Shown here: in pieces, positions 2 to 15,835 of the stretch
Numbering within the stretch: position 1 is the first letter of the stretch
How the letters are laid out: each line of letters opens with the position of its first letter
IMG/VR virus record: IMGVR_UViG_3300025120_000519
Location: 1 to 24,578 of that record
Reading direction: 5' to 3' (one strand)
Length of the DNA: 24,578 bases
Source of the DNA: a virus
Translations under genes and position numbers: made by a program
Notes under the pieces: generated by a model
Databases searched by the model: none
Told to the model about the DNA's origin: nothing
The model's input: only the letters and a program-made list of their open reading frames with translations

Positions 2-172
2 GTAAAGTCTAAAGACAATACTCCTTCTATTACCTCTCTAGATTTAACAGAAAAAGAATTAGAGTTTTTATTAGTAACTATTAAAAATGGTTTATTTAAA
101 GGAGAATATGTAGAATTATGTTATAATATTACTTTAAAATTACAAACAAAATATAATGAAGTAAAAAAATAA
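2..172 (+). CDS. C-terminal end of a small hypothetical protein (partial)
   Basis: This is the last 56 codons of a gene that begins upstream of the window. Reading from base 2 the frame is open to a TAA at 170-172, while the other two forward frames are interrupted. The visible tail is acidic-to-mixed and probably helical (…LDLTEKELEFLLVTIKNG…), and ends in a Lys-rich stretch. Short helical proteins of this style are common in marine phage genomes, but I cannot give a function. The stop is followed after six bases by the next start, so the two small genes are probably co-transcribed. Confidence 0.6.
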   Translation, partial: VKSKDNTPSITSLDLTEKELEFLLVTIKNGLFKGEYVELCYNITLKLQTKYNEVKK

Positions 173-178
173 TAAGTT

Positions 179-370
179 ATGTCTTATAATTTAACAAATC
201 TTTCACTAAGAGAATTACGTGCTCTTAGAAAATCAACAGATTTTATTCCAATTACGGGTATTGATGCTATCTTTATAGGTACACTCCAAGTAAAACTTAC
301 AGCAAAAATAGAAGGTATTGAAGAGCAATTAAAAGAAAAAGAAGCATCCATTCCTCCCCCTCCTATTTAA
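179..370 (+). CDS. small hypothetical protein, 63 aa
   Basis: A 63-residue ORF with an ATG start, following the previous stop by six bases. It has a Leu/Arg-rich N-terminal half (…LSLRELRALRKSTDF…), a short hydrophobic stretch around residues 27-36, then a charged helix (residues 43-57), and ends in IPPPPI. The pattern suggests a small helical protein that may form a coiled coil through its C-terminal half. It lies directly upstream of the late-type promoter motif of the fibre gene and so probably ends the preceding transcription unit. Function unknown. Codon use and the lack of a competing frame support it as a real gene. Confidence 0.55.
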   Translation: MSYNLTNLSLRELRALRKSTDFIPITGIDAIFIGTLQVKLTAKIEGIEEQLKEKEASIPPPPI

Positions 371-388
371 TAGGAAAAACTAAATTCA

Positions 389-397
389 TATTTATAA
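389..397 (+). promoter_or_regulatory. late-type promoter motif TATTTATAA (fibre gene)
   Basis: TATTTATAA followed by CAAAT. The same nonamer occurs 16-63 bases upstream of six other structural genes in this window (5015, 9474, 9774, 11586, 13223 and 15839). It is the reverse complement of TTATAAATA, which contains the T4 late-promoter core TATAAATA. The distance to the ATG at 461 is longer than at the other sites because a structured leader lies between. The promoter role is inferred from recurrence and position. Confidence 0.6.
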
Positions 398-407
398 CAA
401 ATATTAA

Positions 408-447
408 GGCCCGCAAGGGAAGTGGACTGAATAATCAGTAGCCAACC
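408..447 (+). promoter_or_regulatory. structured 5' leader of the fibre mRNA (two hairpins)
   Basis: This GC-richer island in an AT-rich intergenic region can fold into two adjacent hairpins. The first is CCC-GCAA-GGG (410-419), a 3-bp stem with a GNRA-type tetraloop. The second, at 423-444, pairs TGG+ACTGA with TCAGT+CCA around an ATAA loop, with a two-base AG bulge on the 3' side. G408-G409 could pair with C446-C447 and close both into a junction. It lies between the late-type motif and the start codon, so it would be in the mRNA. A role in controlling translation or stability of the very long fibre message is inference. Confidence 0.45.
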
Positions 448-460
448 TAATAAGATAGAT

Positions 461-3400
461 ATGCCAAATTGGAAAAAAGTAATCATCAGTGGATCTAATG
501 CTGATCTAAATGAATTAAAACTATCAGGTCTTTCAACCCAAGGATCTGAAAACACAACCCTTGTAATTAATAGTAGTGGTGTAGTAGGTACTAGAGAAAA
601 TGCAGCTTCTAGTGGCTCATCAGGCTCATCAGGCTCATCAGGGTCTTCAGGTGTAAATGGTTCATCAGGTACTAATGGTTCATCAGGTACTAATGGTTCA
701 TCAGGTTCAAGTGGCTCTTCAGGTACAACTGGTACAGATGGTACTTCAGGTACTAATGGTTCAAGTGGTTCATCAGGAATAAATGGAACAAGTGGTACAG
801 ATGGTTCTTCGGGATCAAGTGGAACAAGTGGTTCATCTGGTTCTTCAGGCACATCTGGTACAACAGGGACTTCTGGGTCCTCGGGATCAAGTGGAACAAA
901 TGGTTCAAGTGGCTCATCAGGAACAACTGGTACCTCAGGTACTAATGGTTCATCTGGTACTAATGGTTCATCAGGAACAAATGGTTCAAGCGGATCATCA
1001 GGAACAGATGGAACTTCAGGTACAAATGGCTCTTCAGGTACAGATGGTTCAAGTGGCTCTTCAGGATCAAGTGGTTCAAGTGGAATTTCTGGTACATCGG
1101 GATCAAGTGGTTCATCTGGTTCTTCTGGTACAACTGGTACTTCAGGTACAACAGGAACTTCTGGATCATCAGGTTCAAGTGGCTCTTCAGGTACAAATGG
1201 TTCTTCAGGTACAGATGGAACATCAGGAACTAATGGTAGTTCAGGTTCATCAGGAACAGATGGAACTTCAGGTACAAATGGCTCTTCAGGTACAAATGGC
1301 TCTTCAGGAACAAACGGTTCTTCAGGAACAGATGGTTCTTCAGGAACAGATGGTACATCAGGAACAAACGGTTCTTCAGGAACAAATGGTTCAAGTGGTT
1401 CTTCAGGTACAGATGGCTCAAGTGGCTCTTCAGGAACAAATGGTTCTTCAGGTACAAACGGCTCAAGTGGTACAAGTGGCTCTTCAGGTACAACTGGTAC
1501 TTCTGGATCTAGTGGTTCAAGTGGTACAAACGGTTCTTCAGGATCTTCAGGTAGTTCAGGTAGTAACGGCTCTTCAGGATCAAGTGGATCTAGTGGTTCA
1601 TCTGGTTCTTCGGGACAAGATGGTAACTTTGGTGGTGCTACTTTTAATTATACTTTTGAAACTAATACCAATGTTGGGGCAGACCCAGGTGCTGGAGATA
1701 TAAGATTAAATAGCTCTACACAAAATGCAGCAACTATATCGGCTATAAGTCAAACAACAGAAGATGGTGATAATATACAAGAGTTTTTAGAATCTATAGA
1801 TGCCTCAACATCAGCCGTAAAAGGTCATATGAGAATGGCAGATAAATTCTCCCCAGAAAATTTTATATTATTTTCAATATCAAACTTAACAGACATAGGT
1901 ACATATTGGACAATAAATATAAATGAACAAGCATCATCAGCAGCTTCACCTTTTAGTGCTAATGAAGCAATAATTGTTTCTTTCGCTTTAGTAGGTGATA
2001 GAGGGGATAATGGTTCTTCAGGAACAAGTGGTTCATCAGGATCAAGTGGGTCTAATGGTTCATCAGGATCTTCAGGAACAAATGGTTCAAGTGGCTCTTC
2101 TGGTTCTTCAGGAACAGATGGCTCTTCAGGCTCAAGTGGCTCAAGCGGATCTTCAGGTACTAACGGTTCAAGCGGCTCTTCAGGTACTAATGGTTCATCT
2201 GGTACAAATGGCTCATCAGGAACAAATGGTTCTTCAGGCTCAAGTGGCTCAAGCGGCTCTTCAGGTACTAATGGCTCATCCGGAACAAACGGGTCTTCAG
2301 GTACAAATGGTAGTTCAGGTTCATCTGGTACTAATGGTTCATCTGGAACAAATGGCTCAAGCGGATCTTCAGGTACTAATGGTTCATCAGGAACAAACGG
2401 TTCATCCGGCTCTTCAGGTACAAATGGTTCATCAGGTACAAATGGTTCAAGCGGATCATCAGGAACAGATGGAACTTCTGGTTCAAGCGGTTCAAGCGGC
2501 TCAAGCGGTTCAAGCGGCTCTTCAGGCACAACTGGTACTTCAGGTACAAGTGGTGTTTCGGGCTCTTCAGGCTCTTCAGGCTCTTCTGGTTCTAATGGCT
2601 CGTCAGGTACTTCAGGTTCAAGTGGAACATCTGGTTCTTCAGGAACATCTGGTTCTTCAGGAACTTCTGGATCAAGCGGTTCAAGCGGTTCTTCGGGCAC
2701 AACTGGTACTTCAGGTACAAGTGGTAATACAGGAACATCTGGCTCAAGTGGCTCATCAGGTTCTTCAGGAGTAAATGGAACAAGTGGCTCATCAGGAGTA
2801 AACGGAACAAGTGGTTCTAGTGGTACAAGTGGAGTAAATGGTAGTTCAGGTTCAAGTGGAGTAAATGGTAGTTCAGGTTCAAGTGGAACAAATGGCTCAG
2901 CAACAATTTCAAATAATGTTGATAATAGAGTATTAACAGCTACTGGAACATCAACAATTAATGGTGAATCTAATCTTACTTTTAATGGATCATTACTATC
3001 AGTAACTGGTTGTCTTTCTGCAACTGGAAGAATAAACTTTGGAACAGATAATGACCAATTAGGTTCATGTGCTTCTATATTAGGTGGAGAACTTAATACA
3101 ATAATTATGGGTGCTAGCCATTCTACAATAGGAGGTGGTTTTAAAAATACTGCATCAAATGCAAGTACAGATTGTACTTTTATAGGAGGAGGATGTGGTA
3201 ATAAGGTAGCAAGCCAATATAATATAGTAGTAGGTGGTCAAAATAACTCTTCTGCAAATAATTATGCAGCTATAGTTGGTGGTGCCAATAACAATAATCA
3301 AGGTTGTCATGGATTTATAGGAGGAGGTTCTAGTAATACTAATAGTCTTAATTGTGTAACATCATTAATTGGAGGTTGTTTAAATTATATTGATGGTAAT

Positions 3401-4996
3401 GTTAACTGCTCAATTTTATTAGGAGGTAGAGAAAATTGCATGTACGCTGGTAATAGTTTACCTGCTTATTGTACCCAATATGCTTTTGTAGGTACTGGTT
3501 GTAAAAACCAAATTAATAAATCAGGTTGTCAAGCCTGTTTTTCAACAATATTAAATGGATCTCATAATGAAAATTTCTGTAATTTTTCTTTTATAGGAGG
3601 AGGAACAAAAAATACTTCATCTGTAAGTTTTAGTACAATTTTAGGTGGAGAACGAAATTCAATAACAACTGCAGGGTGTGGAATTTGCTGTTCTGGAAAC
3701 AATTTTATTGGAGTAGGATATTTAAATACTATCCAAGGTAGTCTACATGGAAGTGTAATTCTTAGTGGTAATACTAATTGTATTACTGGTTCTAATACCT
3801 CTAACGATTTGGCTCTTTTGTCCTGTAATAATATGATAGTGGGGGGCCAGACAAATAAAATACTAGTTGCTGAAAGATCAAACCACAATGCAATAGTTGG
3901 TGGTAGATGCAATATTATATGCACTACAGGACCCAGTTATGCTTCCCAATCTACTGGAAATAATGTAATTGGAGGTGGTGCGTTTAATTTTATGATTATG
4001 CGTTCTGATGTTGGTCAATTTTGTCTCGGAGCTCAAGGAGGTAATACTATATCAGGAGGAAAGGGTAATAAAATTTGTTGTGTTGGTAATAGTTTCATAG
4101 GAGGGGGGGTTAATAATATAATGTGCTGTGCTGGAGTGCATAATGTTATCGCTGGAGGATCACAAAATAAAATAAGATGTCAAAGGGGTAATTCCATTCT
4201 TGGAGGGTGTTGTAATATAATATGTGGAAATCAATCAACACAAGGATGTAATGCTATTGTAGGTGGTTTTGGTAATTTAATAGGAGCGGGTGATGCTTGT
4301 GTTTATCTTAATACAATTGGAGGTGGTTCGGGTAATAAAATTTGTTGTGATAGTCAAAATAATTTTGTAGCAGGATGTAATAACTGTTTAGGTGCTGGAA
4401 GTTCTTCAAATAATTCAAGATTTTCTGCAGTATTTGGATGTAATAATAAAACCTGTGCTGATCATAATTTAATGTCAGGGTATAATAATACTATAGGGTC
4501 AAGTTATAATAGAACAGCTATTTTAGGTACTTATGGTAAAACTGCAACTGCAGATGATCAATTAATGGTTTGCTGTATTTGTGCTTTTGGATCTTTAAGT
4601 AAAGCTTCTGGTACATTTACAATTGATCACCCAAACCCATGTAAAACAGCAACACATCATTTAAAGCATAGTTTTGTTGAATCACCAACAGCTGGGGATA
4701 ATGTATATAGATGGGAAGTTGATATTGATGATACACTTCACGGTGAGATAGTTCTTCCAGAATATTATAGATATTTAAATGAAAATTCTCAAGTATGGAT
4801 TAATCCTGTAAATAATTTAGGTAGAGCATTTGGTATAGTAAATATTAGTGCAACTAAAGTAAAAATTACAACATCAGACCCTGGAAAATTTAATGTGTTA
4901 GTTATTGGAACTAGAAAAGATAAAGCAGCAGTTGAAGCTTGGAAAGGTGTTGAAATTAAAAAAACAAAAGAAGAAAAATTAAATAATAGAAATTAA
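461..4996 (+). CDS. giant collagen-like tail fibre / adhesin, 1511 aa
   Basis: A phage fibre. The N-terminus (MPNWKKVIISGSNADLNEL) resembles virion-anchoring N-termini of marine phage fibres. Residues 50-388 and 512-812 are uninterrupted Gly-X-Y triplets made almost only of SSG, TNG, TDG, TSG and TTG, with no proline. Residues about 389-511 form an ordinary globular domain between the blocks. Residues about 830-1380 repeat a GGG-x-x-N-type motif, as in left-handed beta-rolls of YadA-like trimeric adhesins, with about 42 cysteines. The end (about 1380-1511: SGTFTIDHPNP, HSFVESP, VIGTRKD) matches a C-terminal domain I recognise from other bacterial and phage surface proteins. A trimer with a triple-helical shaft is expected. 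The ATG at 461 follows an A/T leader without Shine-Dalgarno. Fibre identity is sure; receptor and exact virion position are unknown. Confidence 0.88.
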   Translation: MPNWKKVIISGSNADLNELKLSGLSTQGSENTTLVINSSGVVGTRENAASSGSSGSSGSSGSSGVNGSSGTNGSSGTNGSSGSSGSSGTTGTDGTSGTNGSSGSSGINGTSGTDGSSGSSGTSGSSGSSGTSGTTGTSGSSGSSGTNGSSGSSGTTGTSGTNGSSGTNGSSGTNGSSGSSGTDGTSGTNGSSGTDGSSGSSGSSGSSGISGTSGSSGSSGSSGTTGTSGTTGTSGSSGSSGSSGTNGSSGTDGTSGTNGSSGSSGTDGTSGTNGSSGTNGSSGTNGSSGTDGSSGTDGTSGTNGSSGTNGSSGSSGTDGSSGSSGTNGSSGTNGSSGTSGSSGTTGTSGSSGSSGTNGSSGSSGSSGSNGSSGSSGSSGSSGSSGQDGNFGGATFNYTFETNTNVGADPGAGDIRLNSSTQNAATISAISQTTEDGDNIQEFLESIDASTSAVKGHMRMADKFSPENFILFSISNLTDIGTYWTININEQASSAASPFSANEAIIVSFALVGDRGDNGSSGTSGSSGSSGSNGSSGSSGTNGSSGSSGSSGTDGSSGSSGSSGSSGTNGSSGSSGTNGSSGTNGSSGTNGSSGSSGSSGSSGTNGSSGTNGSSGTNGSSGSSGTNGSSGTNGSSGSSGTNGSSGTNGSSGSSGTNGSSGTNGSSGSSGTDGTSGSSGSSGSSGSSGSSGTTGTSGTSGVSGSSGSSGSSGSNGSSGTSGSSGTSGSSGTSGSSGTSGSSGSSGSSGTTGTSGTSGNTGTSGSSGSSGSSGVNGTSGSSGVNGTSGSSGTSGVNGSSGSSGVNGSSGSSGTNGSATISNNVDNRVLTATGTSTINGESNLTFNGSLLSVTGCLSATGRINFGTDNDQLGSCASILGGELNTIIMGASHSTIGGGFKNTASNASTDCTFIGGGCGNKVASQYNIVVGGQNNSSANNYAAIVGGANNNNQGCHGFIGGGSSNTNSLNCVTSLIGGCLNYIDGNVNCSILLGGRENCMYAGNSLPAYCTQYAFVGTGCKNQINKSGCQACFSTILNGSHNENFCNFSFIGGGTKNTSSVSFSTILGGERNSITTAGCGICCSGNNFIGVGYLNTIQGSLHGSVILSGNTNCITGSNTSNDLALLSCNNMIVGGQTNKILVAERSNHNAIVGGRCNIICTTGPSYASQSTGNNVIGGGAFNFMIMRSDVGQFCLGAQGGNTISGGKGNKICCVGNSFIGGGVNNIMCCAGVHNVIAGGSQNKIRCQRGNSILGGCCNIICGNQSTQGCNAIVGGFGNLIGAGDACVYLNTIGGGSGNKICCDSQNNFVAGCNNCLGAGSSSNNSRFSAVFGCNNKTCADHNLMSGYNNTIGSSYNRTAILGTYGKTATADDQLMVCCICAFGSLSKASGTFTIDHPNPCKTATHHLKHSFVESPTAGDNVYRWEVDIDDTLHGEIVLPEYYRYLNENSQVWINPVNNLGRAFGIVNISATKVKITTSDPGKFNVLVIGTRKDKAAVEAWKGVEIKKTKEEKLNNRN
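608..1624 (+). repeat. Gly-X-Y repeat block 1 (about 113 triplets)
   Basis: A nine-base periodic coding repeat in which every third codon is Gly from residue 52 to 388. X-Y pairs are SS, TN, TD, TS, TT and occasional VN, IN, IS and SN. Pro is absent. Synonymous codons are mixed freely (TCA, TCT, AGT, AGC; GGT, GGA, GGC), so the DNA is less identical than the protein. Confidence 0.9.
1994..2896 (+). repeat. Gly-X-Y repeat block 2 (about 100 triplets)
   Basis: The second collagen-like block, residues 512-812, starts GDRGDNGSSG and continues with SSG/TNG/TDG/TSG triplets in perfect three-residue register. The 3' end is enriched in VNG triplets. As in block 1 there is no proline, and the long antisense open frame across it is a by-product of the periodic codons. 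Confidence 0.9.
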
Positions 4997-5014
4997 TTTA
5001 AATAAATAAATTAA
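4993..5014. repeat. AT-only inverted repeat after the fibre stop codon
   Basis: TTAATTTA (4993-5000) and TAAATTAA (5007-5014) form a perfect 8-bp inverted repeat around AATAAA, starting at the fibre stop codon and directly abutting the next TATTTATAA motif. It has no GC pairs and no T run, so it would be a weak terminator at best. It may instead protect the 3' end or be a chance result of composition. Confidence 0.25.
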
Positions 5015-5023
5015 TATTTATAA
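5015..5023 (+). promoter_or_regulatory. late-type promoter motif TATTTATAA
   Basis: TATTTATAA followed by CAAAAT, starting 24 bases upstream of the ATG at 5039. This is the standard spacing seen at the 9499, 11612 and 13247 genes. Role inferred from recurrence. Confidence 0.6.
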
Positions 5024-5038
5024 CAAAATATAATACAA

Positions 5039-5347
5039 ATGACACATACTTGGAAAATTTACGATCTTAAAAGAACAATATCAACTGGAGTAGTTACTGA
5101 AGTAACATATGCTTGTGAATCAGAAGATAATGGACATGGGTCAAGAAAAATAGGATATTTTAACATTTCTGGTGATCCTGCTGATGCCGAATTTATTGCT
5201 TATGATGATTTAACAGAAGCTAATGTTTTAGAATGGTTAAATGATAATGTTGAAAAACAAGTATTTATGGATGCTAATACACTTAGTATACAAAATTCAA
5301 TTGCAAGTGCAGCAGCTATAACAGAAAAAGATGGTACTCCTTGGTAA
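5039..5347 (+). CDS. small conserved phage protein next to the fibre, 102 aa
   Basis: A 102-residue protein beginning MTHTWKIYDLKRTISTGVV. I recall very similar short proteins (TWKI…GVVT.VTYACES…FVAYDDLTEANVL) in many marine phage genomes, usually among structural genes; I believe they are classed as a DUF7936-type family, but I am not certain of the number. The sequence looks like a beta-rich N-terminal half (residues 1-60) followed by a helix (about 60-75, LTEANVLEWLNDNVEKQ). It has its own late-type motif 24 bases upstream and follows the fibre by 42 bases, so a fibre-associated or other virion role is plausible but not shown. Function unknown. Confidence 0.7.
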   Translation: MTHTWKIYDLKRTISTGVVTEVTYACESEDNGHGSRKIGYFNISGDPADAEFIAYDDLTEANVLEWLNDNVEKQVFMDANTLSIQNSIASAAAITEKDGTPW

Positions 5348-5352
5348 TATAG

Positions 5353-5384
5353 TTAGGAGTATCTAAATTAGTTTCGTATATTAG
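5353..5384 (+). promoter_or_regulatory. Bacteroidota-type sigma-A promoter for the glycosylation operon
   Basis: TTAG at 5353-5356, then exactly 20 bases, then TATATTAG at 5377-5384. This approximates the Bacteroidota primary-sigma consensus (-33 TTTG, about 19-21 bases, -7 TAnnTTTG). The wider block TTTCGTATATTAG (5372-5384) is repeated exactly at 22704-22716 and nearly so at 24472-24484. The predicted start site is about 7 bases downstream, which leaves a short leader to the ATG at 5408. Confidence 0.6.
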
Positions 5385-5407
5385 TTTTAATGTAAAAATA
5401 GTTATAA

Positions 5408-6289
5408 ATGAATATTATATTTCAAATAGATGGTGGTTTAGGTAAAAGTATTATGGCAACAGCCATGATTAAAGTTATTAAAAAAAGATACAAAAATTCT
5501 TTTCTTATAATTGTAACAGCATACCCCGATGTTTTTTTAAATAATCCTAATATAGATGAAATTCATCTACCTACACAAGTAAATGGTTTATATTTAAAAC
5601 ATATTAAGGATAAAGATTGCAAGATACTTGTTAGTGACCCGTATAGAGATACAGATTTTATAACTGAAAAACCCATTCATTTATTTAAAACTTGGTGTAA
5701 AATATATGGTTTAAAATATAATAATGAACAACCTCAAATTTATTTATCTCAACCTGAAATAGATTATTTCACACCTTATTATAAAACGGATAAACCTATA
5801 TTAGCTATGCAAGTTAATGGTGGTCCAGCAGGATTAGGTTACCAATATTCATGGACAAGAGATATACCAGAAACTACAGTATTAGAATTAATAGAGCATT
5901 ATAAAAATGATTATACTATAATCCATATAAAAAGAGAGGATCAAAAGGTTTACCCTGATACTATGCAAGCCTTAGATGGATATAGAAGTATAGCTATACT
6001 TTTACAAATGTCGGATAAAAGACTATTAATTGATAGTTTTGTTCAACATTTAGCAGCTTCCTTAAATAAAGAATCTACAGTATGTTGGTCTAGTACTAAA
6101 CCTGAAATATTTGGGTATAAAGTACATAACAACATTAAAGCAGAAAAGTTTACAAAAGAACCAAATCTTTTACAAGCAATATATGGTCCTTTTGCTTTAT
6201 CTGAAGATATAAGTACTATTCCTTATAATGATTTAAGTGAAGTATTTGATACAAATAAAATTATAACTTCTATAAATAACCAAAAATGA
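5408..6289 (+). CDS. GT9-like glycosyltransferase (heptosyltransferase-related)
   Basis: A 293-residue protein resembling glycosyltransferase family 9 (ADP-heptose:LPS heptosyltransferase fold, GT-B). The N-terminus has the Rossmann-like start with a Gly-rich loop (IIFQIDGGLGKSIMATA, residues 3-19). It is followed by the beta-strand/NPNIDEIH pattern typical of GT9, where one monitors what a rival sugar acceptor leaves. The C-terminal half has the donor-side pattern (KRLLIDSFVQHLAASLN, about 204-220, then VCW), where GT9 enzymes carry D-x-x-x-x-H-x-A-A. It is short for GT9 (usually 320-350 aa). It is the first gene of a six-gene overlapping operon and its TGA overlaps the next ATG (ATGA). Donor and acceptor are unknown: ADP-heptose or another nucleotide sugar on the fibre or on host surface glycans are options. 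Confidence 0.72.
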   Translation: MNIIFQIDGGLGKSIMATAMIKVIKKRYKNSFLIIVTAYPDVFLNNPNIDEIHLPTQVNGLYLKHIKDKDCKILVSDPYRDTDFITEKPIHLFKTWCKIYGLKYNNEQPQIYLSQPEIDYFTPYYKTDKPILAMQVNGGPAGLGYQYSWTRDIPETTVLELIEHYKNDYTIIHIKREDQKVYPDTMQALDGYRSIAILLQMSDKRLLIDSFVQHLAASLNKESTVCWSSTKPEIFGYKVHNNIKAEKFTKEPNLLQAIYGPFALSEDISTIPYNDLSEVFDTNKIITSINNQK

Positions 6290-6735
6290 TATATTGGTTT
6301 ACAGGGCAACCAGGATCTGGTAAAACAGTATTAGCAAATTTATTAAAAGATAATTACTTACCCCATGCTTATCGTATAGATGGGGATGAAATGAGAGAGT
6401 TATTTACTAATAAAGACTACTCTATAAAAGGTAGAATAACTAACATAGATGCGGCTCAAAAAATAGCTCATTATTTACATAATCAAGGTAAAGATGTAAT
6501 TGTATCTCTAGTATCTCCCTATTTAGATCAAAGAGAAGAATTTAAATTAAAATTAGGTTGGCCCCTTAAAGAAATTTATGTACATTATGATAAATTAATA
6601 AACCTTAGGGGTAGAGAAAAATTTCATGTTTTAGACTTTCAAAAACCAATTTGTGAATTTTTAAATATTGATACTACAGTTGATACTCCTAATGAATCAT
6701 TAACTAAAATATTAAAATATGTTAAAACAGTATAG
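6286..6735 (+). CDS. APS kinase (CysC)-like P-loop kinase, 149 aa
   Basis: A P-loop kinase close to adenylylsulfate kinase. Walker A is GQPGSGKT (residues 7-14), followed by IDGDEMRE (31-38), the R50/N53 pair of the R-x-x-N element, and VSLVSPY (73-79), where CysC has its SP element with the phosphorylated serine. It is shorter than CysC (about 200 aa), with the APS-binding lid replaced by a short RGREKFHV segment (108-115), so the substrate may not be APS. CysC-like kinases of this compact type are common in marine phages. It overlaps the GT9 gene by four bases, and a nucleotidyltransferase and sugar transferases sit around it. It may therefore make an activated donor for the same pathway, which is inference. 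Confidence 0.72.
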   Translation: MIYWFTGQPGSGKTVLANLLKDNYLPHAYRIDGDEMRELFTNKDYSIKGRITNIDAAQKIAHYLHNQGKDVIVSLVSPYLDQREEFKLKLGWPLKEIYVHYDKLINLRGREKFHVLDFQKPICEFLNIDTTVDTPNESLTKILKYVKTV

Positions 6736-7075
6736 TATGTTTATTGGTAGATATCAACCATGGCATGAAGGGCATCGTTGGTTAATAGACCAAAGATTAA
6801 ATGAAGGAAAAAATGTATGGGTAGCTATTAGATCTAGACCAGATTCCCCAGATGAACCTTGGGGTGCTGATAGGGTTCAAGATAATATTAAAGAAGAACT
6901 TAAAGATTTAATTGAAGAAGGAAGAGTAATTGTTTCTATTATCCCTGATATTGAATCTATTAATTATGGTAGAGGAGTAGGATATGATATAATAGAGCAC
7001 ATCCCACCAAAAAAAGTAGAAAAAATATCAGCAACAAAAATTAGAGAAAAATTAAGAAAAAGTGGTAAGTTATAA
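6719..7075 (+). CDS. HxGH nucleotidyltransferase (cytidylyl/adenylyltransferase superfamily)
   Basis: A small nucleotidyltransferase with both superfamily signatures. The first is GRYQPWHEGH (residues 10-19, HxGH for ATP/CTP phosphates). The second is ISATKIRE near the C-terminus (103-110), equivalent to the ISSTxIR motif. At 118 residues it is close to minimal. Such enzymes transfer AMP or CMP to a phosphorylated substrate (NMN, glycerol-3-P, phosphopantetheine, sugar-1-P), and the specificity cannot be read here. Two starts are possible. ATG 6719 overlaps the kinase by 17 bases, while ATG 6737 follows its stop by one base and still keeps the whole motif (MFIGRYQPWHEGH). I keep the longer form but consider 6737 at least as likely. 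Confidence 0.75.
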   Translation: MLKQYSMFIGRYQPWHEGHRWLIDQRLNEGKNVWVAIRSRPDSPDEPWGADRVQDNIKEELKDLIEEGRVIVSIIPDIESINYGRGVGYDIIEHIPPKKVEKISATKIREKLRKSGKL

Positions 7076-7280
7076 ACGACACATTGCAAAAACAATATCA
7101 TGGAGGATAATAGGAACAATAGATACAATACTAATTTCAGGAATTATAACTGGTTCTTGGGAAGCGGGTTTAGCTATAGGAGGAATAGAAGTTTTTACTA
7201 AAATGCTTCTTTATTTTTTTCACGAAAGAATTTGGTATAAATTTTCAAAATTTGGGGTAAATGGTAAAAGAAAATCTTAA
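7062..7280 (+). CDS. DUF2061 small membrane protein, 72 aa
   Basis: A 72-residue protein matching DUF2061: a basic start (KRHIAKTISWRIIGTIDT) followed by two hydrophobic segments at about residues 17-32 and 34-53, then FHERIWYKFSKFG. It would be an inner-membrane hairpin with basic ends in the cytoplasm. The start is GTG (7062), overlapping the nucleotidyltransferase by 14 bases. No ATG exists nearby, and the family normally begins just before the K-x-x-x-K-T-x-S-W-R motif. The stop overlaps the next gene by 20 bases. Family function is unknown. In this context it could anchor the enzymes or a lipid-linked step at the membrane. Confidence 0.75.
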   Translation: MVSYKRHIAKTISWRIIGTIDTILISGIITGSWEAGLAIGGIEVFTKMLLYFFHERIWYKFSKFGVNGKRKS

Positions 7281-8388
7281 TGTTTTATTTTTAGCACCTC
7301 ACCTTAGCACTGGTGGTATGCCTGCTTTTTTATTAAAAAGAATAGAGTCATTATCTAATTACCCCAATATAAATTTATTTGTTTTAGAATGGTGTAATTA
7401 TAGCCATACTTTTATAGTCCAAAAAGAAAAAATAATTAAATTAGTAGGGGAAAACTATTTTAATTTTGGAGATTTATATACACCTGAAAAAGGTATACAT
7501 GGTGAAAAAGAAAATATAATAGAATTTTTATATGAAAAAAAAATTAATATAATTCATATAGAAGAAATACCAGAAGGATTTGATTCATTTAATCCATTTG
7601 ATAAAAAACTTTTAAAAAAATTATATAGTAAAAATCATCCATGGCGTATAGTTGAAACATGTCATAATATGTATTTCCAACCAGATACCGAAAAATTATT
7701 TGAACCCGATGGGTACGCCTGTGTTACTCCTTATCATGTAGATAATACATTTAAAAACAAACAATCACCAAAAGAATTAATTACTTTTCCAATTGATGAT
7801 TCTATTATTTACAATGAAACTAGAGATAATTTATTAAATGAAATGGGATATAAATTAAAAGGAGAATTCCATATTATTAATATAGGGTTATGGACTCCAG
7901 GTAAAAACCAAAAATATGCTTTAGAAATTGCTAAATTTTTATATGATAAATATGGTTTTACTTATATTTTTCATTTTATAGGAAATCAAGCACCAAATTT
8001 TAAAGAATATTGGGGACCATTAAAGGATAAATTACCTCCTAATGTTAATATATGGGGTGAAAGAAATGATGTAGATAAATTTTTTAAATTTTCTGATTTA
8101 ATGTTATTTACTTCTGACTGGGAATGTAACCCTATAGTATTAAAAGAAGCTATATCGAATAATAAAAAAATAATGGCTTATAATTTAGATCATTACGGGG
8201 ATGAATATACTCCTTATATTGTTCCATTAAGTGGAAATGTAGTAGATGATTCTAATTCTTTAATTAATACTATTTTTACACCTATTAAATATAATGTTAA
8301 AGAAAACAAAAATAATATTAAAAATTTTGCTTTAAAACATATTAATTTTTATAAATCTTTATTAGAAAATGAAACAAAAAGACAATAA
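7261..8388 (+). CDS. GT4-family glycosyltransferase (GT-B), 375 aa
   Basis: A retaining-type GT-B glycosyltransferase. The N-terminal domain opens with a strand and Gly loop (NVLFLAPHLSTGGMPAFLL, residues 7-25). The C-terminal domain starts near residue 203 with HIINIGLWTPGKNQ (204-217), the usual inter-domain strand and phosphate-binding region, and contains FTSDWECNPIVLKEA (283-297). The latter corresponds to the GT4 E-x7-E donor-binding element (E288 and E296). Length is typical. It overlaps the DUF2061 gene by 20 bases and the following O-heptosyltransferase-like gene by 20 bases, so it is translationally coupled to both. It might extend the first sugar put on protein by the next gene product or act on a different acceptor. 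The donor is unknown. Confidence 0.75.
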   Translation: MVKENLNVLFLAPHLSTGGMPAFLLKRIESLSNYPNINLFVLEWCNYSHTFIVQKEKIIKLVGENYFNFGDLYTPEKGIHGEKENIIEFLYEKKINIIHIEEIPEGFDSFNPFDKKLLKKLYSKNHPWRIVETCHNMYFQPDTEKLFEPDGYACVTPYHVDNTFKNKQSPKELITFPIDDSIIYNETRDNLLNEMGYKLKGEFHIINIGLWTPGKNQKYALEIAKFLYDKYGFTYIFHFIGNQAPNFKEYWGPLKDKLPPNVNIWGERNDVDKFFKFSDLMLFTSDWECNPIVLKEAISNNKKIMAYNLDHYGDEYTPYIVPLSGNVVDDSNSLINTIFTPIKYNVKENKNNIKNFALKHINFYKSLLENETKRQ

Positions 8389-9469
8389 AATAAAAATAAG
8401 TTTTGAATATGGTCCTAAAGTAGAAATTATAGGAAATAAACCAAAAAATTATTCTATAAAATTTATTAATGGTTTTAATAATGAAGTAGTACATAAAGAT
8501 ATTATTAAAAATAATATGTGGACTAAAGCTCATTTAGAATATTATATTCCTTGGATTATAGAAATAGATGGAAAAATAGCCCATAAATTTAATGTTAAAG
8601 ATAAAAAAGTAAAAATTACATTTGATTCTAAGTCAATAGGTGATACAATTGCTTGGATACCTCAAGTTGTAGAATTTCAAAAAATATATAGTTGTAAAGT
8701 ATGTGTTAGTACATTTCATAATGAATGGTTTGAAAACTTAGAAGCATATAAAAATATTAAATTTATAAAACCAGATATCCCATATAATGCTTATGTTCAT
8801 TATAAAATAGGATGGTTTAAAATTAATGGGAAATGGGATAATGGTTTAAAAAACCCAATTCAAGCTAATTCAATACCTTTAATAAAGACTATAACTGATA
8901 TTATTAATGTCCCATTTAGGGAATTAAACTATGGTTTAGATTTTAAACCTAGTAAAAGACCTATAAAAGAAAAGTACATTTGCATTGGTCCTAGATCAAC
9001 AGCAGGAATAAAAGAATGGCCATATGATAATTGGAAAGAATTAGCTACTAAATTAACTAAAAAAGGATATAAAGTAATTAATTTATCTTATGAAGGATTT
9101 GAAGGTAAAGATATTATAAATAAAAAAGAACTAGATTGGCCTACTACTTGGAATTATATGCACCATGCAGAAGTATTTATTGGATTAGGTTCTGGTTTAT
9201 CTTGGGTAAATTGGGCATTAAATAAACATACTATAATGATAAATAATTTTATTCCATATGGTTATGAATTTACTAATAATTTAACTAAAATAGAAAACCA
9301 CTCAGTAAATAATAATGTATGGTCAAACCCCCATTATGTATTTGATGCTGGAGATTGGAATTGGGACCCAGAATATCAGGGTACTGAAAAACAACATATA
9401 GCACAAAAATCAATTACAGTAAAACAAGTATATGAAAGTATAATAAAACATTTAACTAATAAAAATTAA
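8369..9469 (+). CDS. autotransporter-type O-heptosyltransferase homologue (TibC/Aah-like)
   Basis: I recognise the architecture of the strand-loop-strand O-heptosyltransferase family (TibC, Aah), which glycosylates Ser residues of autotransporter adhesins with heptose. An N-terminal beta domain (residues 11-80; GPKVEIIGN, NMWTKAHLEY) is followed by FDSKSIGDTIAWIPQVVEF (85-103), which carries the probable catalytic Asp92. Next come YICIGPRSTAGIKEWPYDNW (203-222) and the donor-binding block HHAEVFIGLGSGLSWVNWAL (265-284). The C-terminal segment keeps the family frame FDAGDWNWDPEYQGTEKQ, but the four cysteines that bind iron in TibC are missing. The only Cys residues are 109, 112 and 205. It is the last gene of the six-gene operon. 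The adhesin-like Ser/Thr-rich fibre is the obvious candidate acceptor (inference). Family assignment is confident; sugar and target are not. Confidence 0.82.
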   Translation: MKQKDNKIKISFEYGPKVEIIGNKPKNYSIKFINGFNNEVVHKDIIKNNMWTKAHLEYYIPWIIEIDGKIAHKFNVKDKKVKITFDSKSIGDTIAWIPQVVEFQKIYSCKVCVSTFHNEWFENLEAYKNIKFIKPDIPYNAYVHYKIGWFKINGKWDNGLKNPIQANSIPLIKTITDIINVPFRELNYGLDFKPSKRPIKEKYICIGPRSTAGIKEWPYDNWKELATKLTKKGYKVINLSYEGFEGKDIINKKELDWPTTWNYMHHAEVFIGLGSGLSWVNWALNKHTIMINNFIPYGYEFTNNLTKIENHSVNNNVWSNPHYVFDAGDWNWDPEYQGTEKQHIAQKSITVKQVYESIIKHLTNKN

Positions 9470-9811: not shown

Positions 9812-11569
9812 ATGGCAGAAACATTAATATCTCCTGGCGTATTAGCAAGAGAAAATGACCAATCATTCATTACAGCACAACCCTTAGTAAGAGGAGCAGC
9901 TATTATTGGACCTACTGTTAAAGGTCCTGTTGAAAGACCTACTTTAGTTAGTAGTTTTAGTTCATTCCAAGCAAGATTTGGAGGAGCTCTTTCAAGTGGA
10001 TCAGGTCAATTTACTAACTTAACATCAATTGCAGCAAACCAATACTTTCAAAATGGTGGAGCATCACTACTAGTTACACGTGTAGTATCGGCTTCATCTA
10101 CTTGGACATCTGCTACTAGTTCATTAATCCCTACAGGATCAAATGGTTTTGGTACAAATGGAGCAGTAAATGAATCTCCATTCGTTCTTGAAACAATTTC
10201 TTCAGGTGAAATAATGAATAATGGAACAACATCAGATGGAAATGGTTCACTAGTAAGTGGATCTGTAGATAATGTAAGATGGGAAATTGCTAGTGTTAAT
10301 AGTGCTTCTGGTGTATTTTCACTTCTAATTAGAAGAGGAAATGATACTCAAAATAATAAAGTAGTTCTAGAATCATATAATAATATTTCATTAGATCCTT
10401 TTTCTAGAAATTATATAGCAAAAGCAGTAGGTGATTTAACTACTACAGTAGTAACTTCTGATGGGACTACATATTTACAAGAATCAGGTTCTAACCCTAA
10501 TATTTCTGCTTATGTAAGAGTTAAACAAGTAAATTTCAAAACACCTAATTATTTTAATAATGATGGATCTGCAAAAACAGAATTTACTGGTAGTTTACCT
10601 GCAGTAGGATCAGGTAGTGTTTTTGGTGCATTTGGTGAGGGAGCTGGAAGTAATGAAGCTACAACAGCTACTAACAGATATTACCAAGATATAGATGCTA
10701 CAAATGTACAAGGGTTAATAGCTGGTGATTATACTACCGCTATTGCATTACTTGCAGACACTGATAGTTACCAATACAATGTAATATCAGCTCCAGGATT
10801 ATATTATCAAGCATATTCAGCACCTTTAACTAGTTTAATTAATAATACTATTGCTAGAGGAGACTCAATAGCAGTAGTAGATATGGTACCTTATAATGCT
10901 TCAATTACTGTTGTAAACCAACAGGCTGGAGGTTTAGATACTAGTTACGCAGCAACATATTGGCCTTGGTTACAAACTATTGACCCAAACAGTGGAGAAT
11001 TAGTTTACATACCAGCTTCTACATTTATACCAGGTGTATATGCATTTACAGATGCGTCAGCAGACCCATGGTTTGCACCAGCAGGTATTACTAGAGGAGG
11101 AATGGGACAAGTTGTTAGAGCTGAAAGAAAATTAACATCAGGAAATAGAAATACTTTGTATGAAGCAAATGTTAACCCAATAGCTACATTCCCTAATCAA
11201 GGAGTAGTAGTATTTGGTCAAAAAACATTACAAAAAGCAGCTTCTGCATTAGATAGAGTAAATGTACGTAGATTGTTAATTGTACTTAAAGATTATATTT
11301 CTCAAATTGCTGATAACTTAGTATTTGAACAAAATACAATAGCGACAAGACAAAATTTCTTAACGCAAGTTAATCCTTATTTAGAATCAGTACAACAAAG
11401 ACAGGGATTATATGCCTTTAAGGTAGTAATGGATGAAAGTAATAACACACCAGATGTTATAGATAGAAATGAGTTGATTGGACAAATATTCCTACAACCA
11501 ACTAAAACAGCTGAATTTATTTTACTAGATTTCAATGTATTACCAACTGGAGCAACATTTCCAGCATAA
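9812..11569 (+). CDS. contractile tail sheath protein (gp18-like)
   Basis: A 585-residue sheath protein. The N-terminus (LISPGVLARENDQSF) and the following RGAAIIGPTVKGP (residues 27-39) are the classic sheath start. The segment SSFQARFGG (about 49-57) and the YFQNGGASLLVTRVV region (about 75-89) are also typical. The C-terminal domain (about residues 420-585) contains AERKLTSGNRNTLYEANVNP, RRLLIVLKDYI and the final FILLDFNVLPTGATF, which is the conserved inter-subunit beta/handshake region. It is somewhat shorter than T4 gp18 (659 aa), the variable middle domain being reduced. The sheath surrounds the tube encoded 42 bases downstream and contracts on infection. Identification is based on motifs and on gene order sheath-tube-chaperone-tape measure. 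Confidence 0.95.
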   Translation: MAETLISPGVLARENDQSFITAQPLVRGAAIIGPTVKGPVERPTLVSSFSSFQARFGGALSSGSGQFTNLTSIAANQYFQNGGASLLVTRVVSASSTWTSATSSLIPTGSNGFGTNGAVNESPFVLETISSGEIMNNGTTSDGNGSLVSGSVDNVRWEIASVNSASGVFSLLIRRGNDTQNNKVVLESYNNISLDPFSRNYIAKAVGDLTTTVVTSDGTTYLQESGSNPNISAYVRVKQVNFKTPNYFNNDGSAKTEFTGSLPAVGSGSVFGAFGEGAGSNEATTATNRYYQDIDATNVQGLIAGDYTTAIALLADTDSYQYNVISAPGLYYQAYSAPLTSLINNTIARGDSIAVVDMVPYNASITVVNQQAGGLDTSYAATYWPWLQTIDPNSGELVYIPASTFIPGVYAFTDASADPWFAPAGITRGGMGQVVRAERKLTSGNRNTLYEANVNPIATFPNQGVVVFGQKTLQKAASALDRVNVRRLLIVLKDYISQIADNLVFEQNTIATRQNFLTQVNPYLESVQQRQGLYAFKVVMDESNNTPDVIDRNELIGQIFLQPTKTAEFILLDFNVLPTGATFPA

Positions 11570-13246: not shown

Positions 13247-15835
13247 ATGGCGAGTCTTAAGGAAATTGAAGAAGCAAAATTAGCAGCTAAAGCCCTCAAT
13301 GAAGAATTAGGGTATTTAGAAGATGCCTTTCTTTCAATAGGCCAAAAAATAAAAAATGAAGTTACAGGTCAATTAGAAGGTGCTAGTAAACAAACTAAAG
13401 AATTAAGTAATAAATTTTCTACAAACCTTAATAATGCTATAAAGCAAAATGCTAGCTCTTTAAAAGAGATAACAAAACTCCAAGATCAAATAAGTAAAGG
13501 TGTTAATGTTGAAGCAAAAATACAAAAAGAATTAGAAAAAATTGCAACTAGGAAAAAAACAATTGCACGCCAACAAAATATTCTTACAGCAAATGGTATA
13601 AAAATAAATGAAGAGAATATTAAACAACTTCAATCTCAATTTTCTGTACAAGAAGACACTCTTAATACCCTATCTCTATCAAATATAGAAAAACAAAAAC
13701 AAAAATCTTTATTAACTTTACTTGGAGAAGGAGGTGCTAACCTATTAGATAAACTTGATAAATCGGGCACAGCATCAAAACTACTGAAATTAAATCTAAA
13801 AGATACAGTAACCCCAATGAGGTTAATGGAACTTGCTATAGGTTTTGTAGTTGATGCCTTTCTATCCTTAGATGCCACAACAGAAAAAGTTGCAAAAAAC
13901 CTAGGAATAAGCTTCCATGAAGCTGCTGGGATGAATTCACAATTTTCTCAAATTGCACAAGATTCAAATAATATATTTGTTACTACTGAAGGTATTGCGA
14001 ATTCTCAAATAGAATTATCTAAAGCCCTTGGAACTAATGCAATGTTTACTAGTGAGATGTTACAAACTCAAACAGAGTTAACAACCCAATTAGGATTAAG
14101 TGCCGAAACTGGTGGTGAAATCGCAAAACTTGGTTTATTAACTGGTAAAACATCAAAAGAAATAGCCGCCAATGTAATGGGTCAATCTGTAGCTATGAAT
14201 GCTGCTAATAAAACAGCAATTACAGAAAAATCAATTTTACAAGAAGTAGCAAAATTATCTAGTAGTATACAATTAAGCATGGGTAATAATCCTATTGCAT
14301 TAGCCGAAGCAGTTCAAACTGCTAAGCAGTTTGGTATGGAATTATCAAATGTAGACGGTATAGCTAATAGCTTAATGAATTTTGAACAATCTATTTCTAG
14401 TGAGTTAGAAGCAGAATTATTAATTGGTAAAAATCTTAATCTAGAAAAAGCAAGAACCGCAGCTTTAAATAATGACCTAGCAACAGTAGCAGAGGAAATT
14501 GCAAAACAAGCAGGATCCGCAGCTGAATTTACTGCTATGAACAGAATACAGCAGGAAGCATTAGCTAAAGCTGTAGGAATGAGTAAAGAAGATTTAGCAA
14601 AATCTCTACAATCTAAAGAAATATTAGCTAAATTAGGAGGTAAAGATGCGGATACGCAGGCTGCTTATAATAGATTAAAAGCAGAAGGTTTATCACAAGA
14701 AGAAATAGCAACTAAATTAGGGGATAAAAGATTAGCACAATCCTTACATTCAGAAGGAATACAATCCCAATTTACAGCTTCTGTAGCAAAAATGAAAGAA
14801 TTATTTGTACAAGTTGCAGCTGTCTTAATTCCTATAGTTGAACCAATAATGGCAGCAGTTGGGTTTATGGCTAATTTAATTTCTGAATCTATGACTTTCT
14901 TGAAAGTATTAGGAAGTATAGCTGCGGCTATGAAAATTATTAAATTTCTAGGTAATCAAACATACCGACAACAAGTATTAACAAATGTTGCCTCTAAACT
15001 AGGTTTAATTACAGAAACAGAAAAAGGAATAGTAGAAAGTAGAAATGCCTTAACCGGAAATAGTATTTTGAGAATAAAGAAAATGAAAGCTTTATATGAT
15101 CAAAACTCATTAGCCACTATATTAAAAGAAAAAGCTATAAAGACATATAATTTAGGCATGGAAAAAGCAAGTAACATATATGCTAAGGTAAAATTAGGAT
15201 TAGAAAATGCCATATTAGCTGTATCAGAGGGGAATTATTTACTAACATTAAAGGAAAATATAGCAACTAAATTAAGTAATGTATTTTTAGGTATAAAATC
15301 AGCAATTACCACTGGTATAGCAGTAACTAGTAAAATAAATTTAGGAACTTTAATTGCAGAAAAAGCGGCACAAGTTGGTACTATTATAATGTTAGGAGCT
15401 AGATTAGCTATTCAAACAGCGATTGCAGCAGCAGCTTTAGTAGGTGTATCTGCATCTACTTTAGGTATTGGAACAATAGTTGCATTAGCAGCAGCTGCCG
15501 GAGGTATAGCATATTTAATGAGTGTTGCAAAAGGAGATGATGTAATGTCCCCAGGAGCTAATACATCAGGGTATGGTAGCAGAACATTAATGGGCCCAGA
15601 AGGAGCAATAGCATTAAATAATAAAGATACGGTTATAGCAGGTACAAATTTATTCCCCAAAGGAAACGATGTTGTATCTGGACCAGCAGGTTCTGTACAA
15701 ATGCCTAATAATTCAGAAGCTAAAAAAACAAATGCCTTATTAGAAGCTTTAATAAATAAACCTGCCCCTAAAGTAGAAATGGATTCAATTGAAGTTGGTA
15801 CGGTAGCAGGAATGAGTGCATTCTCCATACAGTAA
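13247..15835 (+). CDS. tail tape measure protein, 862 aa
   Basis: A long, largely helical protein located just after the tail chaperone pair. Residues about 1-145 are coiled-coil-like (EEAKLAAKALNEELGYLEDA; repeated Lys/Glu/Gln heptads). The middle is Ala/Gln/Ser-rich helix. Hydrophobic segments lie at about 518-545 (VQVAAVLIPIVEPIMAAVGF) and about 720-760 (Ala/Gly-rich, ending IAYLMSVAKGDD), as expected for a protein that passes into the host membrane with the DNA. The C-terminus (GYGSRTLMGPEGAIALNNKD, then DTVIAGTNLFPKGNDV) is a tail I know from tape measure proteins of marine T4-like phages. The usual ruler relation of about 0.15 nm per residue would suggest a tail near 130 nm (inference). 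It has its own late-type motif. Confidence 0.9.
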   Translation: MASLKEIEEAKLAAKALNEELGYLEDAFLSIGQKIKNEVTGQLEGASKQTKELSNKFSTNLNNAIKQNASSLKEITKLQDQISKGVNVEAKIQKELEKIATRKKTIARQQNILTANGIKINEENIKQLQSQFSVQEDTLNTLSLSNIEKQKQKSLLTLLGEGGANLLDKLDKSGTASKLLKLNLKDTVTPMRLMELAIGFVVDAFLSLDATTEKVAKNLGISFHEAAGMNSQFSQIAQDSNNIFVTTEGIANSQIELSKALGTNAMFTSEMLQTQTELTTQLGLSAETGGEIAKLGLLTGKTSKEIAANVMGQSVAMNAANKTAITEKSILQEVAKLSSSIQLSMGNNPIALAEAVQTAKQFGMELSNVDGIANSLMNFEQSISSELEAELLIGKNLNLEKARTAALNNDLATVAEEIAKQAGSAAEFTAMNRIQQEALAKAVGMSKEDLAKSLQSKEILAKLGGKDADTQAAYNRLKAEGLSQEEIATKLGDKRLAQSLHSEGIQSQFTASVAKMKELFVQVAAVLIPIVEPIMAAVGFMANLISESMTFLKVLGSIAAAMKIIKFLGNQTYRQQVLTNVASKLGLITETEKGIVESRNALTGNSILRIKKMKALYDQNSLATILKEKAIKTYNLGMEKASNIYAKVKLGLENAILAVSEGNYLLTLKENIATKLSNVFLGIKSAITTGIAVTSKINLGTLIAEKAAQVGTIIMLGARLAIQTAIAAAALVGVSASTLGIGTIVALAAAAGGIAYLMSVAKGDDVMSPGANTSGYGSRTLMGPEGAIALNNKDTVIAGTNLFPKGNDVVSGPAGSVQMPNNSEAKKTNALLEALINKPAPKVEMDSIEVGTVAGMSAFSIQ

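Follow-up and report, generated by a model that had tools for sequence, protein, structure and literature searches.

A TibC-like glycosyltransferase that probably O-glycosylates the collagen-like tail fibre of a T4-like phage

Do glycosyltransferase genes lodged among phage tail genes serve the surface of the host or the virion itself? The question is raised by virus record IMGVR_UViG_3300025120_000519, a stretch of 24,578 bases that is called the window here and carries tail genes of a T4-like phage with a contractile tail. It encodes a collagen-like tail fibre and, behind it, a cassette of six genes that ends with a homologue of the autotransporter heptosyltransferases TibC and Aah. An earlier note on this DNA had proposed that the cassette activates sugars and attaches them to Ser and Thr of the fibre. 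Of this proposal, O-glycosylation of Ser/Thr is most probably right in view of co-occurrence and bacterial pairing, a role in sugar activation is unproven, and the gain that the note suggested, protection from proteases or binding, is conjectural. We put the probability that the phage glycosylates its own fibre shaft, by an enzyme of a sister subfamily of TibC, at roughly 0.78. This reading is supported by the presence of the enzyme gene in records chosen for the fibre, by a bacterial pairing that is split by one branch of the enzyme tree and by a distant jumbo phage with the cassette behind such a fibre.

A TibC-like enzyme beside a Ser/Thr-rich fibre

The fibre has long Gly-X-Y repeats and matched the Pfam family Collagen with 285 bits (cut-off, 27). 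We counted 215 triplets in two blocks (Table 1), with Ser or Thr at 357 of the 430 X/Y positions and neither proline nor lysine at any of them; the more than 200 Ser/Thr-rich triplets seen by the earlier note are thus borne out. Ser/Thr occupied 201 of 215 X positions and 156 of 215 Y positions, the latter also holding Asn (43) and Asp (12). When the protein was shuffled 200 times, the mean was 0.87 triplets and the maximum 19. Past the shaft, [IVL]-G/A-G-x motifs recur, with 14 of 18 spacings measuring 14 to 20 residues. Since this spacing fits a beta-roll, the YadA-like roll suggested earlier is plausible for this region, although Collagen was the only family matched in a Pfam scan of the fibre. 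The same region contains 41 of the 42 cysteines of the fibre, several as CC, which could possibly bind metal or form a disulfide ladder.

The enzyme encoded by the last gene of the cassette matched the autotransporter heptosyltransferase model TIGR04414 over residues 5 to 358 with 167.5 bits (E 4e-49), under the curated cut-off of 200. Its AlphaFold model, with a predicted local distance difference test score (pLDDT) of 94.8 from 32 sequences, superposed through residues 5 to 366 on residues 21 to 391 of TibC (4rb4) with Z 39.5, a template modelling score of 0.85 and a root mean square deviation of 1.8 over 349 residues. The superposition takes in the N-terminal beta-barrel, and GT9 enzymes trailed at Z 21 and below. 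Lys230 of TibC, which we take to be a catalytic residue, corresponds to K215 of the window enzyme and Asp110 to D92, and both were conserved throughout two alignments of 103 rows each, the first of which held 86 distinct rows and the window sequence three times (window, L001 and L002). Phage rows fell to 33% identity with the window enzyme. An alanine mutant of TibC Asp110 is inactive (PubMed Central [PMC] article PMC4358343, in excerpt). Like TibC and Aah as described there, the window enzyme combines a predicted GT-B fold with N-terminal barrel and the catalytic Asp and Lys, and its gene lies near that of a repeat-rich Ser/Thr surface protein. Unlike theirs, the partner is a Gly-X-Y fibre and not an autotransporter, the thumb region has 28 instead of 38 residues, and the window clade is devoid of the iron-finger cysteines. 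The earlier description of the enzyme as TibC/Aah-like therefore stands for homology, fold and D92/K215 and falls short for strict family membership, since partner, iron finger and curated score differ.

Fibre and enzyme across phage records

The earlier note had suggested looking for co-occurrence in other phage genomes, and the outcome was strongly positive in comparison with two control classes of collagen. In an enzyme-led search of viral DNA (80 loci, the best of 150), 37 TibC loci had 10 kb of upstream sequence; 29 of them carried a protein of at least 15 triplets in the flank (near-duplicates included), and 3 more had a collagen match elsewhere on the contig. These counts, like the sheath contrast and the 8 of 9 places in Methylobacter's order given below, were tallied by hand. 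For the reverse test, IMG/VR records were chosen by a GSSGTNGSSG-coding pattern alone, the enzyme being disregarded, and the whole records were searched with the enzyme profile. This GSSG set comprised 100 of at least 102 distinct records among at least 120 stretches, with no size filter (L281, 8.8 kb, and L282, 4.5 kb, were omitted). A TibC-like gene was found in 49 of the 100 (23/50 plus 26/50), in 49 of the 92 records of at least 15 kb and in 35 of the 43 of at least 50 kb. After near-copies had been joined by near-identical fetched pieces or equal TibC scores, a group being positive if any member was, the proportions were 30/62 overall and 20/24 at 50 kb or more. Among control records of at least 15 kb, Gly-Pro-x fibres gave 1/50 (1/19 at 50 kb or more) and Gly-Asp-Lys-type fibres 0/50 (0/14 at 50 kb or more); GSSG and control fibres stem from different phages, many records are related and the contigs are fragments. 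Each control set was 50 of the 80 loci listed for its pattern, and some qualifying records (such as L353, L409 and L472) were omitted. The median share of Ser/Thr at X/Y positions was 0.81 in GSSG fibres, 0.20 in Gly-Pro controls and 0.07 in Gly-Asp-Lys controls. The median number of triplets was 220, against 47 and 31 in the controls, where only 37/50 and 27/50 of the fetched pieces show at least 15 triplets. In 33 records the gap between fibre and TibC-like gene had a median of 6.7 kb; 23 lay within 10 kb, and the genes were nearer than under random placement (Kolmogorov-Smirnov p 7e-4).

The cassette itself recurs on L231, a jumbo phage contig of 218 kb. There a Gly-X-Y fibre, of which 450 triplets are seen, is followed by a sulfotransferase, the kinase, the nucleotidyltransferase, DUF2061, a GT9-like gene (47% identical to the window's), a small gene, a GT9 gene, one further gene and a GT4-TibC-FkbM fusion. 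The conservation of this order behind a Gly-X-Y fibre in so distant a phage speaks for a cassette that moves as one unit in the service of the fibre. Both partners also occur in Microcystis elabens phage Mel-JY01 (L083, PP395634.1; 190 kb, described as complete), for which no paper was found in the open-licence PMC literature. Its open frame 2-3049 of 1016 codons holds 202 triplets (Ser/Thr 0.79), and about 1.7 kb beyond it lies a 1226-residue fusion that ends in the TibC domain. In the record the frame is annotated as two reverse-strand hypothetical genes and a C-terminal fragment; the collagen match and the 202 triplets rule out Mel-JY01 as an example of a TibC phage without a Gly-X-Y fibre. 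The 160 kb record of Flavobacterium phage immuto had neither a collagen match nor a TibC-like enzyme; the start of its fibre-like protein resembles the window fibre, and the shaft is absent.

Several results weigh against glycosylation of the fibre. TibC-like genes without a Ser/Thr-rich fibre, which the earlier note had named as evidence against its own proposal, do occur: the flank was without a fibre at 8 of the 37 loci, 5 of which had no collagen match on the contig. Conversely, 51 of the 100 GSSG records had no TibC-like gene, and near the fibres of such records 2 of 107 open reading frames matched GT2, the sole glycosyltransferase among 25 of 83 families listed (107 of 122 non-redundant frames were scanned; families with one matching frame could have gone unseen). 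The collagen paired with TibC is poor in Ser/Thr on L136 and of the proline type on G154. Of 33 records, only 15 had the fibre and enzyme genes on one strand. TibC depends on its iron finger for activity, and the activity of the window enzyme, which has no such finger, is therefore uncertain. Finally, in 31 records chosen by sheath (searched along with 19 others chosen for TibC) the link was weak, with a collagen match in 6 of 12 TibC-positive and 4 of 19 TibC-negative records. The weak sheath-matched contrast would be expected if the link reflected only shared ancestry and habitat, fibre and enzyme both marking one broad group of large phages; many records are indeed from related T4-like or jumbo phages, and the controls, with their shorter repeats, belong to other phages. 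We consider this unlikely, because TibC rows as distant as 33% identity are involved, in which the domain stands alone, behind GT4, with GT4 and PIG-L or with GT4 and FkbM, and because bacterial chromosomes carry the pairing too, the other kind of neighbour lying across a single branch.

Bacterial relatives and the ring-forming elements

Cellular homologues were taken from a species-genome collection, in which two patterns had picked out 441 relatives; the best 80 of these yielded 78 loci. One script found a Ser/Thr-rich Gly-X-Y protein in the flank of 17 of them, a protein with at least 8 SGG motifs in 34 and both in none. All 10 Gly-X-Y neighbours sampled matched Pfam Collagen, 8 above cut-off, and all 6 SGG neighbours sampled matched Pfam AIDA above cut-off; the autotransporter beta-domain was matched by two of the latter as well. 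A single branch of a 103-row tree, supported at 100/100, had on one side 25 phage rows, 17 Gly-X-Y rows and 4 unlabelled ones and on the other 34 AIDA-type rows and 23 without a label; the AIDA side held no phage or collagen-type row, and the window enzyme has no autotransporter as neighbour. By its place in this tree, the window enzyme falls in a subfamily that goes with collagen repeats, is sister to the autotransporter heptosyltransferases and is common to phages and bacteria. With TIGR04414, a phage enzyme (L020) reached 205 bits, bacterial collagen-type enzymes 306 to 324 (n = 5) and AIDA-type enzymes 536 to 660 (n = 4). By score, these bacterial collagen-type enzymes would thus be named autotransporter transferases, and their neighbours misfit that label.

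The bacterial Gly-X-Y contigs came from Methylobacter, Methylomicrobium, Acidiferrobacterales, a Polaromonas assembly and others. The proteins are mostly short, with GTSGTSGTSG-type runs, and are separated from the enzyme gene by 35 to about 1100 bases; judged by eye, they often have a signal or lipoprotein start. Small secreted-looking proteins with GTSGTSG runs adjoin TibC-like genes at L526, L532, L534 and L535 (methanotrophs and other Gammaproteobacteria). Six of the 21 bacterial-assembly loci on the collagen side looked viral by eye (L522, L524, L530, L536, L538 and L540); of the remaining 15, 13 have a Gly-X-Y partner. Within Methylobacter's order, 17 of 311 genomes had a homologue at E 1e-40 or better. 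The 9 places above 390 bits had a Gly-X-Y neighbour in 8 cases and an AIDA-type one in none, whereas the 9 below 312 bits, two of them with short flanks, had 0 and 4, respectively; six of these 18 places overlap the 78-locus set. In an even sample of Methylobacter's class, only 2 of 369 genomes had a homologue at E 1e-40, one being the sample centre.

These chromosomal pairs bear on two alternatives. The transferases might modify host surface glycans, lipopolysaccharide (LPS) or capsule, against superinfection and adjoin the fibre by coincidence in a host-recognition island. Glycosyltransferases beside the tail fibres of pelagimyophages, in which collagen repeats were noted, are read as modifying the host O-chain (PMC7029224, in excerpt), and a TibC-like gene is missing from half of the records with GSSG fibres. 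We regard such a role as quite improbable, given that the fold is that of TibC, N-terminal barrel included (Z 39.5 versus about 20 and less for LPS heptosyltransferases), that the enzyme is tied to one compositional class of fibre and hardly to two others, and that bacterial relatives pair with the same repeats on chromosomes. The enzyme might also act on the beta-roll of the fibre, or on another virion protein, instead of the shaft: TibC modifies the beta-helical passenger domains of TibA and AIDA-I (PMC4358343, in excerpt), and the repeat region of the fibre may be a roll. However, the small bacterial partners have GTSGTSG-type runs and, by eye, no such roll, and the GSSG records were selected by the shaft alone, so we think a target other than the shaft unlikely.

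TibC has an iron finger of four cysteines (339, 342, 358 and 370), each needed for activity, and a beta-hairpin thumb with a hydrophobic tip that is conserved in its family; finger and thumb are both required for the dodecamer and for activity (PMC4358343, in excerpt). The window enzyme has N, V, D and A at the four positions. In the first 103-row alignment, 94 rows had all four cysteines, 9 had none and partial sets did not occur; the nine are the window clade (with the window itself three times) and L073. In a 74-row tree the window clade formed one group (five rows, 100/100) within cysteine-bearing relatives and therefore reflects a single loss, L073 being another. All 78 bacterial-assembly rows had the four cysteines, but one of the two patterns that fetched them includes a finger cysteine. 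Since window-clade members with enough flank (L002, L003, L005, L006 and L045) retain a Gly-X-Y fibre, the cysteine-less enzyme has presumably kept its role.

All 34 AIDA-type rows have a thumb region of 38 residues. In the window enzyme it is 28 residues long and in 13 bacterial collagen-type rows 29 or 34; the 25 phage rows range from 27 to 40, some with a longer, different insert. A G[AS]ED motif in the thumb was present in 28 of 34 AIDA-type rows, compared with 0 of 17 Gly-X-Y and 0 of 25 phage rows. The change of neighbour thus goes together with a remodelling of the ring-forming element. Loss of the thumb across the whole subfamily was considered and dropped: the region is remodelled, and a pairwise alignment still places Ile-Ile of the window enzyme at the tip of TibC (Phe265-Val266), which the multiple alignment gaps, so that a hairpin may persist.

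Taken further, the subfamily could be a separate class of protein O-glycosyltransferases for Ser/Thr collagen-like repeats, found in T4-like and jumbo phages and on a number of bacterial chromosomes, as a sister group of the iron-dependent, ring-forming autotransporter enzymes and with a remodelled thumb. The window clade would be iron free and perhaps without a dodecamer. Such enzymes would take the first step towards a glycan coat, built with GT4, GT9, de-N-acetylase, methyltransferase and perhaps sulfotransferase, on nearly proline-free shafts of up to several hundred triplets. We see the chances for and against this wider claim as evenly balanced.

The proposed pathway and the remaining genes

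ADP-heptose as donor and a dodecameric assembly are traits of the autotransporter heptosyltransferases; heptose as the donor here would be a guess by analogy. As to acceptor residues, order of addition and timing, we infer that the TibC-like GT-B enzyme would, in the cytoplasm of the host, move a sugar from a nucleotide donor onto Ser/Thr of the Gly-X-Y shaft, either ahead of fibre trimerisation or in its course. The GT4 and GT9-like enzymes would then lengthen or branch the glycan, and the trio of kinase, nucleotidyltransferase and DUF2061 protein may serve as an optional source of an activated group, possibly sulfate.

The collagen-glycosylating enzyme of mimivirus presumably belongs to a different family from the window enzyme. 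With R699 and L230, that virus encodes a collagen and a collagen-glycosylating enzyme acting on hydroxylysine (PMC9546862, in excerpt). Unlike this type, which is also that of animals, the window shaft has Lys at 0 of 430 X/Y residues. BclA is bacterial, has proline-containing repeats and presumably depends on other enzymes than the window's. It is a glycosylated collagen-like spore protein of Bacillus (PMC8968730, in excerpt). In mycobacteriophages, glycans are found at the C-termini of capsid and tail tube proteins (Freeman et al. 2023, cited in an excerpt of PMC12619734); virion proteins of phages are concerned in both cases, here probably a collagen-like fibre shaft and a TibC-type enzyme. 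No report of a TibC-like enzyme paired with a collagen-like fibre was found in the open-licence PMC literature searched. The rule that emerges, the TibC sister subfamily beside Ser/Thr Gly-X-Y repeats and classical TibC beside AIDA repeats, allows a direct test of whether the many glycosyltransferases next to phage tail fibres serve the host glycan or the virion itself, with Mel-JY01, whose record names a Microcystis host, and Methylobacter as test systems. It may help to explain the cohesion of proline-free collagen shafts hundreds of triplets long and suggests an iron-free tool enzyme to O-glycosylate collagen-like proteins.

A further distinction from the autotransporter enzymes is seen in related phages, where GT4, a PIG-L de-N-acetylase domain, FkbM or other methyltransferases often adjoin the TibC-like enzyme or are fused to it; this suggests a glycan made in several steps. 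PIG-L GlcNAc de-N-acetylase domains are fused or adjacent to it at L009 (8789-12511) and L020 (11076-12515), hinting at an amino sugar in the glycan. At L105 (5217-8368) a complete TibC-like fusion is followed immediately by a second, partial TibC-like frame. Proteins that by eye resemble 2-oxoglutarate oxygenases lie near TibC or Gly-X-Y genes at L123 (553-1164), L169 (6141-6740) and L636 (6569-7168), PF13640 was matched by 2 of the 107 open reading frames near TibC-less GSSG fibres, and Mel-JY01 has an annotated prolyl 4-hydroxylase, although these shafts carry little or no proline.

Table 1. Features of the window and the matches on which their names are based
Feature	Coordinates	Strand	Basis or remark
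Collagen-like tail fibre, 1511 aa	461..4996	+	Pfam Collagen (PF01391) E 8.9e-87
Gly-X-Y block 1, 114 triplets, Ser/Thr-rich, without proline; proposed acceptor	614..1639	+	
Gly-X-Y block 2, 101 triplets; proposed acceptor	1994..2902	+	
Repeats with [IVL]GG motifs, probably a beta-roll; 41 cysteines (residues 830-1390)	2948..4630	+	
DUF7936 protein between fibre and cassette	5039..5347	+	PF25590 E 8e-20
GT9-like glycosyltransferase	5408..6289	+	model pLDDT 65, best fold matches GT9
APS-kinase-like P-loop kinase	6286..6735	+	PF01583 E 1e-14; PDB 5cb6 E 6e-9
HIGH-superfamily nucleotidyltransferase	6719..7075	+	PF01467 E 1e-6
DUF2061 small membrane protein, GTG start	7062..7280	+	PF09834 E 1e-22
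GT4 glycosyltransferase	7261..8388	+	PF00534 E 3e-7
TibC/Aah-like protein O-glycosyltransferase (predicted), collagen-repeat subfamily	8369..9469	+	TIGR04414; PDB 4rap E 7e-27
Tail sheath	9812..11569	+	PF04984, phrog_23; cassette sits inside tail gene cluster

The gene coordinates confirm that each of the six cassette genes overlaps the next, as the earlier note had it, and Pfam or fold matches agree with its GT9-like, GT4-like, P-loop kinase, nucleotidyltransferase and small membrane proteins. For the GT9-like protein, which matched no Pfam family at cut-off, the agreement comes from a low-confidence model too poor for claims at residue level. The kinase, which resembles adenosine 5'-phosphosulfate (APS) kinases, scored 55 bits with PF01583 (cut-off, 21) and below the cut-off of every NCBIfam APS-kinase model. 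The best curated models for the nucleotidyltransferase were nicotinamide mononucleotide (NMN) adenylyltransferases, with scores below their cut-offs, and a PDB search gave weak lectin and NMN-adenylyltransferase matches; its identity as an ATP sulfurylase was unsupported by the profile (E 0.19). Kinase and nucleotidyltransferase adjoin a TibC-like gene at only 7 and 8 loci, respectively, many contigs being short. The sugar activation formerly ascribed to the pair is left unproven by these few loci and by L231, where the trio follows a sulfotransferase gene; sulfate as a possible activated group is suggested by that same position. The trio could accordingly be a 3'-phosphoadenosine-5'-phosphosulfate (PAPS) module that sulfates the glycan, in keeping with glycosylation of the fibre. 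The APS-kinase-like kinase and the place of the L231 trio directly behind the sulfotransferase gene (PF13469, E 4e-16) point that way. The nucleotidyltransferase is nearer to NMN adenylyltransferases than to ATP sulfurylase, the kinase stays under all curated APS-kinase cut-offs and none of ten window proteins scanned matched a sulfotransferase, so that a PAPS module is possible and somewhat doubtful.

The gene between fibre and cassette, unnamed in the earlier note, encodes a DUF7936 protein, and one small gene separates the TibC-like gene from the sheath gene. The sheath protein is closest to those of Flavobacterium phages of the immuto group (53%), followed by Mel-JY01 (47%); because of this nearest relationship, the host of the window phage is likely a member of the Bacteroidota. 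The sequence AATATTTATAA occurs in five copies, all on the plus strand (5013, 9472, 9772, 11584 and 15837; 0.43 expected from shuffling), 15 to 30 bases upstream of start codons of tail-region genes, and is a candidate late promoter. Copies with one mismatch precede the fibre (387), the gene at 5408 (5397) and that at 13247 (13221); overall there were 14 such copies against 8.7 expected, no more than chance often yields. TATAAATA is contained in the reverse complement of AATATTTATAA.

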